A stretch of 10,880 nt of DNA from JAUXIQ01 sp030620925 [NCBI: Nitrospinota bacterium] (GTDB taxonomy: Bacteria > JAUXIQ01): the NCBI GenBank assembly GCA_030620925.1, contig JAUXIQ010000030.1:1-10880 (forward strand), in the 5' to 3' direction. A model generated the notes under the pieces. It saw only the letters and a list, made by a program, of their open reading frames with translations, made no database searches and was not told where the DNA came from. Positions 2,046-10,590 of this stretch are shown here, in pieces. Both the position numbers and the translations under genes were made by a program. The number at the start of each line of letters is the position of its first letter. Position 1 is the first letter of the stretch.

Positions 2046-2129
2046 TTTTTCTCCCCCCAGAGCAATTGTGTGCGGTTTGGCAGGTTTAAAATCTTATCAG
2101 TTTATAGATTCCATTTTTTTGTTAGCGTT

Positions 2130-2158
2130 ATTATAGCACCGGGGGGGAGAATTTAGAA
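2130..2158 (-). promoter_or_regulatory. Promoter with extended -10 for the CoA-transferase gene
   Basis: On the minus strand TGCTATAAT (2138 to 2130) is an exact extended -10. A weak -35, TTCTAA (2158 to 2153), stands 17 bases upstream. The start would be near 2123, giving a leader of about 78 bases. The spacer includes a run of seven C on this strand. It lies in the 151-base gap after the RND pump gene, so the CoA-transferase probably has its own transcript. Confidence 0.55.
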
Positions 2159-8743: not shown

Positions 8744-10066
8744 CTATGCCATGAGGAATATGTAGCGCAGGACGAAGAGGGCCGCGAACAGGTGGATCAT
8801 CCAGTGCACTTCTTTAACCCGCCCGCTCAGGAGCTTGAGCAGCGAATAGGAGATGAAGCCGAAGGCGATCCCCTCGGTGATGCTGAAGGTAAGGGGCATG
8901 ATGATCAGTGTCAGGAAGGCGGGTATGGATTCGGTGTAATCCTTCCAATCGACGTGGATAACGTTTTTCAACATGATACTGCCCACGATGATAAGCGCAG
9001 GGGCGGTGACCGGATAGAGGAAGACGTTTTCGCTTATCTGCATCCCGCCCCCTATCATCTTTATGAGTGGTGAGAAGAAGATGGCGGCTATGAAAAAGAG
9101 GGCGGTCACCATGTTGGACAGCCCGCTCCTTCCCCCTTCCGCAACACCGGCGGCGCTCTCGATATAGCTGGTGACGGTGGAGGTTCCTAACGCAGAGCCG
9201 GCAACCGTGCCCACGGCGTCCGAAAGCAGAGCCCTATGCGCACGGGGCAGCTTGCCTTTCACCATGAAACCCGCTTCCTGGCTCACCCCTATGAGGGTTC
9301 CCACGGTGTCGAAGAGGTCCAGGAAGAAGAAGATGAAGATGACCTCCAACAGCCCGAAGCGTATCGCTCCCAGGATGTCCAGCTTGAGGAAGGTGGGGGC
9401 TATGGAGGGCGGCGCGCTTATCACGCCCTGGTACTCGATCAATCCGAAGATGACTCCCACCACGGCGGTGACGATTATCCCCCACAGGATCGCCCCCTTC
9501 ACCTTCCTGGAGAGGAGGGTGGCGATGAGTATTATGCCGAAGATGGAGAGCAGCACGGGGGGACTCTTCAGGTTGCCCAGCTTTACCAGGGTGGCCGGAT
9601 GGTCCACCACCAGGCCCGCCCACTCGAACCCCACCAGGGCTATAAGCAGGCCGATGCCCACGGCGATACCGTTTTTAAGGCACACGGGCATGGCGTCGAT
9701 CACCCTCTCCCGCACGCCGATAAAAGACAGTGCGATGAAGATCACCCCGGAGATAAAGACCGCGCCCAGCACCGTCTGCCAGGGGACGCCCATCACCAGC
9801 ACCACGGTGTATGCGAAGAAAAAGTTGTGCCCCATGGCGGGAGCCAGGGCGATGGGGTAGTTTGCGAGAAGACCCATCAGGATGGTCGCAAATGCGCTGG
9901 AGAGGCATACCGCCATGAACACCGAGTTGAAATCCATCCCCGTTGAGGAGAGGACGACGGGCTGAACGAAGATGATGTAGGCCATGGTCATGAAGGTGGT
10001 GGCGCCCGCTTTGACCTCGGTGCGCAGGTCGGTATTCAGCTCCTGGAGTTTGAAAAATTTTCTCAC
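8744..10066 (-). CDS. NCS2-family nucleobase permease, AzgA type (purine transporter)
   Basis: This inner-membrane purine:proton symporter has 440 residues and about 14 helices, the usual size. AzgA-type signatures are RTEVKAGATTFMTMAYIIF (15-33), PAMGHNFFFAYT (76-87), FDTVGTLIGVSQEAGF (252-267), the near-invariant block 294-315 (GTSTVTSYIESAAG, then VAEGGRSG) and ITEGIAFGFISY (396-407). Close relatives take up adenine or hypoxanthine/guanine; the sequence does not let me choose. Small departures are QP for the usual NP after helix 1 and GHN for GLN at 79-81. I take GTG 10066 as start because AAAGGGGGTG lies just before it and homologues begin with KFFKL; ATG 10102 in the same frame would add 12 unlikely residues and lies inside the leader. 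A long structured leader precedes it. It converges on the SDR gene. Confidence 0.92.
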   Translation of the reverse strand: MRKFFKLQELNTDLRTEVKAGATTFMTMAYIIFVQPVVLSSTGMDFNSVFMAVCLSSAFATILMGLLANYPIALAPAMGHNFFFAYTVVLVMGVPWQTVLGAVFISGVIFIALSFIGVRERVIDAMPVCLKNGIAVGIGLLIALVGFEWAGLVVDHPATLVKLGNLKSPPVLLSIFGIILIATLLSRKVKGAILWGIIVTAVVGVIFGLIEYQGVISAPPSIAPTFLKLDILGAIRFGLLEVIFIFFFLDLFDTVGTLIGVSQEAGFMVKGKLPRAHRALLSDAVGTVAGSALGTSTVTSYIESAAGVAEGGRSGLSNMVTALFFIAAIFFSPLIKMIGGGMQISENVFLYPVTAPALIIVGSIMLKNVIHVDWKDYTESIPAFLTLIIMPLTFSITEGIAFGFISYSLLKLLSGRVKEVHWMIHLFAALFVLRYIFLMA

Positions 10067-10094
10067 GTGCCCACCCCCTTTTAAATATAGCGGG

Positions 10095-10171
10095 TAGAGC
10101 ATTTATAGAGCAGGAAATCGGTGCCGACAAGTAGTCGGCGAATATCCCTCCGTTACCGGATAAGATGCTCT
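10095..10171 (-). promoter_or_regulatory. Structured 5' leader of the purine permease (riboswitch-like folding potential)
   Basis: On the minus strand AGAGCAT (10171 to 10165) can pair perfectly with ATGCTCT (10102 to 10096). This encloses two hairpins: TCCG-GTAA-CGGA, a stem closed by a GNRA tetraloop (10160 to 10149), and GCCGAC-TACTT-GTCGGC (10139 to 10123). A second TGCTCTA copy at 10112 to 10106 offers AGAGCA an alternative partner 11 bases away, so two folds can compete. The element ends about 30 bases before the GTG start and 14 before the ribosome binding site. I do not recognise a known riboswitch core. The role is inferred. Confidence 0.4.
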
Positions 10172-10279
10172 GGTGAGAAAAAAACCGGACGAGCCGTTCC
10201 CGTTCCAAAACCGCAGCGAACGGGCAGGGGGTTGATAATAAAGGTCGAGGTTGTTACTGAAGGAAGGTTTAATCCGTTG

Positions 10280-10307
10280 ATGATATATCAGGTTTTTTTA
10301 AGGACAA
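10280..10307 (-). promoter_or_regulatory. Possible promoter of the purine permease
   Basis: On the minus strand TTGTCC (10307 to 10302) and TATCAT (10285 to 10280) are spaced by 16 bases. A start near 10273 would give a leader of about 207 bases containing the structured element at 10095-10171. The rest of 10281-10404 holds short palindromes (TGATATATCA at 10281-10290, CTCTTAAGAG at 10325-10334) but no gene that I can support. Confidence 0.35.
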
Positions 10308-10404
10308 TGCCGGTCAGCGCACCTCTCTTAAGAGCGCAGGCGTTTTATTCCCGTCCCGCGTCTAACGGCTCGCTTCTTTAAATATCACCGCCTTAAGGGG
10401 GTCA

Positions 10405-10590
10405 TTATTCGTCTGAGCTGAGTTTTCCCGCGATACCCCAGTTACTCTTGGGGATGTCATAGATGACCACCTGCACACCTTCCGTCTTGGTACCGGTTTT
10501 TTCCACCATTACCTCGGTGATCGCTTTGACCAGCTCTCTCTTCTGCTGCTCCGATCTTCCTTCCCACATCTGCACTGTGACTACGGGCAT
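10405..10590 (-). CDS. 4-oxalocrotonate tautomerase-family small enzyme
   Basis: This 61-residue protein, at the family's normal length, has Met followed at once by Pro, which becomes the catalytic N-terminal Pro1 after Met removal. The 4-OT family performs keto-enol tautomerisation or related chemistry as small oligomers in the cytoplasm. Arg11 (numbered from Pro1, in WEGRSEQQK) matches the catalytic Arg11. The position of Arg39 is Gln (EGVQVVIYD), and Phe50 is replaced by Trp in SNWGIAGKL. It is therefore probably not a classical 4-oxalocrotonate tautomerase. AGGAGG lies 5 bases before ATG 10590, which decides this start over the ATG at 10620. It follows a LUD-domain gene with a terminator between them; no aromatic-degradation genes are visible. 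Confidence 0.88.
   Translation of the reverse strand: MPVVTVQMWEGRSEQQKRELVKAITEVMVEKTGTKTEGVQVVIYDIPKSNWGIAGKLSSDE

Follow-up and report, generated by a model that had tools for sequence, protein, structure and literature searches.

The permease locus

The window analysed here is a 10,880-nucleotide stretch of DNA, one contig of a genome of 445 contigs (2.5 Mb) that is the sole representative of its phylum among the genomes compared. On the minus strand, a LUD-domain gene truncated at the window end is followed by a 4-oxalocrotonate-tautomerase-like gene, which ends at 10405, and, after a gap of 338 nt, by a permease gene:

8744 to 10066, minus strand: NCS2/AzgA-type nucleobase permease gene, start codon GTG at 10066-10064 (Pfam PF00860, E 2.8e-40)

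An NCBIfam search gave the permease no name, and we take it to be AzgA on the label of the first-pass annotation and on general knowledge of the family. Among the matches listed, of which the best 80 were kept, the closest permeases are at most 65% identical to it. A tblastn search of plasmids with the permease retrieved 430 records, all below 60% identity (the eight listed carry no product names), and among IMG/VR contigs there are 125 stretches with a gene for a relative, the best 80 of the 125 being 41-48% identical.

The GTG start at 10066 is backed by three homologues, 54-65% identical, whose own starts lie at most 3 residues away. An in-frame ATG at 10102 was rejected as the permease start, since no Shine-Dalgarno (SD)-like stretch precedes it and the same three homologues begin within 3 residues of GTG 10066. 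With this ATG the permease would gain 12 residues (10102-10067, minus strand), and the distal AUGCUCU strand of the leader described below begins with it; were it the true start, the argument from the SD hairpin would fall.

Predicted structure of the azgA leader

The leader was read on the minus strand, the sense of azgA, and its predicted element is made up of the following parts:

10058 to 10181, minus strand: the predicted leader element in full, with P0 as its closing helix (from folding of the surrounding 130 nt)
10173 to 10181, minus strand: P0 5' strand, UUUUCUCAC, a perfect 9-bp complement of 10058-10066
10058 to 10066, minus strand: P0 3' strand, GUGAGAAAA, nine bases at the very start of the permease gene, including the GUG start codon
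10165 to 10171, minus strand: switch strand AGAGCAU, the P1 5' strand, with two possible partners
10171-10165 with 10102-10096, minus strand: alternative P1, AGAGCAU with AUGCUCU, 7 bp (the closing stem of the first-pass annotation)
10149 to 10160, minus strand: P2 hairpin, UCCG-GUAA-CGGA, with a GUAA (GNRA) tetraloop (sequence and folding)
10123 to 10139, minus strand: P3 hairpin, GCCGAC-UACUU-GUCGGC, 6 bp, a 6-5-6 palindrome as DNA (sequence and folding)
10106 to 10112, minus strand: proximal TGCTCTA, the preferred partner of the switch strand (sequence and folding)
10095 to 10101, minus strand: distal TGCTCTA, the 5' part of the anti-SD strand (sequence and folding)
10092 to 10101, minus strand: anti-SD strand, UGCUCUACCC, paired with the SD stretch in the fold
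10068 to 10101, minus strand: SD-sequestering hairpin, UGC/GCA (10101-10099 with 10070-10068) and CUACCC/GGGUGG (10097-10092 with 10076-10071)
10072 to 10078, minus strand: SD-like GGGGGUG, 5 nt before GUG (sequence)

We presume GGGGGUG to be complementary to the 3' end of 16S rRNA, going by the general 16S sequence. The first-pass annotation had described a closing 7-bp stem around a GNRA-capped hairpin and a second 6-bp hairpin, with TGCTCTA, repeated at an 11-base period, as a second possible partner for one strand of that stem. All three helices are present on the minus strand, the two TGCTCTA copies do lie 11 bases apart, and the duplicated partner strand exists in the sequence. That description omits the 9-bp start-codon helix, in which UUUUCUCAC, adjoining the 5' side of the element, pairs perfectly with GUGAGAAAA, as well as the SD hairpin and the use of the proximal repeat in the lowest-energy fold.

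When the 130 nt from 10055 to 10184 were folded, the minimum free energy (MFE) was -50.4 kcal/mol, with a z-score of -6.38 and none of 200 shuffles as good, although the ends of the element were picked after viewing folds, which somewhat flatters its z-scores here and below. The complement of the same stretch reached -43.4 kcal/mol (z -4.63), i.e., the mRNA strand folds better. For the 106-nt core of the first-pass annotation, the z-score was -3.22 (0 of 200 shuffles as good), against -2.63 (2 of 200) for its opposite strand, and the core alone hardly separates an RNA reading from a DNA reading. A fold that includes the SD stretch gave an MFE of -43.4 kcal/mol (z -3.88, 1 of 200 shuffles as good), with AGAGC(A) paired to the proximal repeat. 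Taken as a whole, the 341 nt between the genes do not stand out (z -1.76, 5 of 100 shuffles as good), which places the fold signal in 10055-10184.

Elsewhere in the leader, at 10185-10310, just two sites were seen, one promoter-like and one terminator-like, both weak. The latter is a weak hairpin with a T run at 10178-10203 on the minus strand, the T run overlapping the 5' strand of P0. We rejected the terminator-like sequence at 10203-10189 as an attenuator, because the 61 nt around it fold less well than shuffled sequence does (z 1.06; 176 of 200 shuffles as good).

The 7-bp stem is not the preferred way to close the arm. AGAGC pairs with the proximal repeat in the MFE structure (5 bp) and forms the 7 bp with the distal copy once the SD stretch is omitted; forcing the 7-bp P1 costs 6 kcal/mol (-44.4 vs -50.4). 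In the model, GUG is unpaired with a probability of 0.00 and the SD with a probability of 0.14, and under the forced P1 these values become 0.01 and 0.33. Without P0, the modelled start codon is 0.87 free and the SD still 0.14. Since GUG stays paired under the alternative P1, as does most of the SD, strand exchange alone gives no clean ON state, and on these predicted pairings P0 must open as well if the leader is to be released.

Comparison with other leaders and with shuffled sequences

To judge the leader against its own genome, we used background leaders taken upstream of longest-ORF starts, uncurated, from 20 of the 445 contigs and the window; the 54- and 96-leader sets count azgA twice (once with the longer ORF start), and the 95-leader set is without this duplicate. 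In start-proximal 137-nt leaders (mean -0.02, sd 1.37), azgA ranks first of 95 by z-score, at -5.86 with the next at -4.22, and in 126-nt windows it ranks first of 54, at -4.52 with the next at -4.0. The start codon is covered by an exact helix of 9 bp or more in 2 of the 95 leaders; 10 of 3000 shuffles give such a helix. Three-strand 6-mers occur in five of the 96 leaders, the four besides azgA lacking a link to the SD, and azgA is the only one of the 96 to combine a three-strand 6-mer with an anti-SD overlap. Shuffling the 97-nt core 3000 times produced the three-strand arrangement with anti-SD overlap twice; when it was sought anywhere in 326 nt, 258 of 3000 shuffles had it.

Other measures do not single the leader out. 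SD accessibility alone, taken in a shorter window, is the 12th lowest of the 96 leaders and not exceptional, and stepping windows along the entire azgA leader gives a lowest z-score of an unremarkable -2.41, others going down to -5.15. The predicted pairing is beyond chance for the start codon and for the overall fold.

Some other leaders of the genome have features of their own. At L204 (7682, plus strand) the start codon lies in an exact helix of 9 bp, and the leader at L211 (2588, minus strand) has a z-score of -4.22. Within the window, a gene at 837-2045, which we take from its sequence to be CoA-transferase-like, has a leader (2046-2150, minus strand) in which the SD likewise seems to be hidden: in the predicted fold, GGGGGGAG, which immediately precedes the ATG, is paired with a CTCCCCCC run located some 80 nt upstream of the SD. 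The z-score of this leader is -4.0 in the 126-nt windows and only -2.35 in the 137-nt window.

Search for known families and homologous leaders

The first-pass annotation had seen no known purine riboswitch core and had proposed a covariance-model scan against known RNA families, together with a search for homologues upstream of azgA-type genes. Rfam 15 (4227 families, the purine riboswitch included) gave no match in the window at gathering score, and we take the xanthine/NMT1 and the PRPP/ppGpp (ykkC subtype 2) families to be covered by the 4227 scanned. A lax Rfam scan of 9900-10500, with E up to 5, returned as its sole line a sub-threshold snoRNA model at 9939-9995. The 20 homologous azgA loci scanned against Rfam had no match either.

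For homologous leaders, we built single-sequence covariance models of the core (R1) and of the whole element (R2); such models detect close relatives only, and blanks from them are weak evidence of absence. Within the own genome, both models matched the element itself and no second copy. Under stricter filters, R1 (E up to 0.1) matched one of 290 genomes, the own one, and none of the other 289, and R2 matched two of 386, namely the own genome and a single line with E 0.95 over 73 nt, which we take as chance. No match was obtained with R1 on 76 of the 189 azgA loci (from L003-L191, most Pseudomonas and viral loci omitted), with R2 on 67 of the 189, or with nhmmer (E up to 10) using leader and core against all 189 loci, where the added window was recovered as a positive control. 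The best blastn line has E 0.081 and is likewise taken as chance. R1 was also run on the phyla to which the genomes encoding the three closest AzgA proteins among the matches listed belong, and it matched 0 of 3, 0 of 4, and 0 of 4.

The three closest whole-genome homologues among the matches listed lie 65, 27, and 25 nt from the next upstream ORF (uncurated) and have other neighbours. Long upstream gaps are found in several more distant homologues (for example L006, 236 nt; L007, 385; L009, 391; L010, 448; L033, 399; L034, 278), and neither the covariance models nor nhmmer matched the leaders in these gaps. A leader common to homologous permeases was not seen among those covered. The search thus yielded no credible homologue in the genomes and loci covered: the leader is known from one sequence, and the number of homologues available for covariation is zero.

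A candidate translational lock

The reading that fits best, and which we consider moderately likely, is that the leader is a cis-acting mRNA element that represses translation of the permease. P0 would pair the GUG start codon and close the element, and the inner hairpin would pair the SD, such that ribosomes could not load by default. The side arm (P1 with the proximal repeat, the P2 GNRA hairpin, and the P3 hairpin), located 5' of the SD hairpin, would be able to compete with that hairpin, because both TGCTCT copies are possible partners of AGAGCA and the SD hairpin requires the distal one. A signal acting on the arm, whether a protein, a small RNA, a metabolite, or the kinetics of co-transcriptional folding, would then open P0 and the SD hairpin. 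The helices and their competition are predicted from the sequence, and we infer that the RNA is made with its 5' part, that translation is repressed, and that a signal exists. Counting against the lock, the 3' strand of P0 is coding sequence.

As a kind, the leader is ordinary, with an SD and start codon predicted to be sequestered in a closed mRNA structure, and no relative of the element was found in the genomes and loci covered. Protein- or sRNA-controlled leaders are alike in hiding both SD and start codon in this way and differ in that their regulators are known. The purine (guanine/adenine) riboswitch resembles the azgA leader in having a P1 with two hairpins and a nucleobase transporter downstream, but the junction and loop sequences differ from its core and there is no Rfam match.

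RBS-sequestering and strand-exchange control are described for known riboswitch classes (PMC7373994, PMC7266159, PMC10907184). The translational strand-exchange riboswitches (PMC10907184) share with the azgA leader a switching strand that can pair with either of two partners, one of which bears on access to the SD. In contrast, the azgA leader has no match to a known aptamer and no ligand, its start codon also lies in an outer 9-bp helix, and the modelled exchange leaves the SD uncleared. The xanthine (NMT1) riboswitch (PMC7373994) is alike in its RBS-sequestering expression platform and its purine-related genes; it differs in folding as a hairpin whose internal bulge is conserved, and the azgA leader is without an Rfam match. 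Passages of PMC13328217 describe AzgA-type transporters and mention purine riboswitches generally, with no link between them in those passages, and the titles and abstract openings of the literature on azgA and riboswitches name no azgA leader RNA.

Alternative explanations

The main rival, which we regard as possible but unlikely, is control at the DNA level, in which an internal promoter starts the azgA transcript near 10095, the RNA fold is mostly never transcribed whole, and the repeats serve as operators, GCCGAC-N5-GTCGGC lying over the -35 and TGCTCTA-N4-TGCTCTA forming a direct repeat at helical period. Two promoter-like sites bear on it, one on each side of 10171:

10102 to 10130, minus strand: promoter-like TTGTCG-17-TATAAA inside the element (9 of 12 matches)
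10280 to 10307, minus strand: promoter-like TTGTCC-16-TATCAT upstream of the element (9 of 12 matches)

Shuffles of the 97-nt core average 0.18 sites of the internal site's quality, and the 338-nt leader holds two such sites where its shuffles average 0.52. Additionally, the dyads fold on both strands, and the layout of OmpR/PhoB-type boxes is like the 7-N4-7 direct repeat. The promoter-like site upstream is equally good, however, and control at the DNA level explains neither the start-codon helix nor why the mRNA strand folds better. No regulon was seen in the genome: at up to 2 mismatches the repeat pattern has 6 matches, its own included, against 4 for a reversed control, and at up to 1 mismatch the palindrome has 18 matches on both strands, its own included, against 16 for the control, a count of recurrence that misses single-target operators.

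A new riboswitch class seems somewhat less likely than an internal promoter with its operators. The P1/P2/P3 arm would then be an aptamer for a purine or a related metabolite, and binding would shift AGAGCA between the TGCTCT copies and so alter access to the SD. The duplicated partner strand, one copy of which lies within the SD hairpin, is what such an exchange would use, and a GNRA-capped hairpin and a nucleobase permease downstream are in keeping with it. SD sequestration is common in the xanthine/NMT1 class (PMC7373994), and a mechanism of strand exchange has been described (PMC10907184). Set against this, the leader matches no Rfam family, occurs once in its genome and was found nowhere else searched, and the modelled exchange costs 6 kcal/mol while freeing little. 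It is by their conservation that riboswitch classes are normally identified. A narrower version is more doubtful still: a lineage-restricted new class answering to a nucleobase or nucleobase-derived signal, with a double lock (P0 on the start codon, the inner hairpin on the SD) and the duplicated partner as its exchange element. Of the switching leader put forward in the first-pass annotation, a strongly folded leader with two partners for one strand, ending on the SD and start codon and suited to translational control, holds up; its riboswitch part is not supported, with no match to a known family, no homologous leader found and hence no covariation, and a closing stem that is not the preferred fold.

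It is improbable that the element has no function, its pairing then reflecting a GC-rich SD together with complementarity that arose by chance in a single lineage. Homologues were not found, the ends were freely chosen, shuffles of the 326-nt leader gave the three-strand arrangement with SD overlap 258 times in 3000, and other leaders of the genome hold stretches with z-scores as low as -5.15, all of which speak for chance; the first rank among 95 leaders at a window fixed relative to the start, and the strand bias, argue otherwise. An RNA thermometer, in which heat would melt the SD and start-codon helices, is very improbable, for although both the SD and start codon are paired, the gene downstream is a permease and modest warming does not free the SD in the model (unpaired 0.14-0.17 for the SD and 0.00-0.03 for GUG from 37 to 65 C).

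Significance of the leader

If real, the translational lock that we favour would be a compact one, set on a nucleobase permease in the sole genome of its phylum among those compared. As an RNA of about 125 nt it is small and testable, and its trigger could be a purine signal. The case also shows that a leader without homologues can be judged against the other leaders of its own genome.
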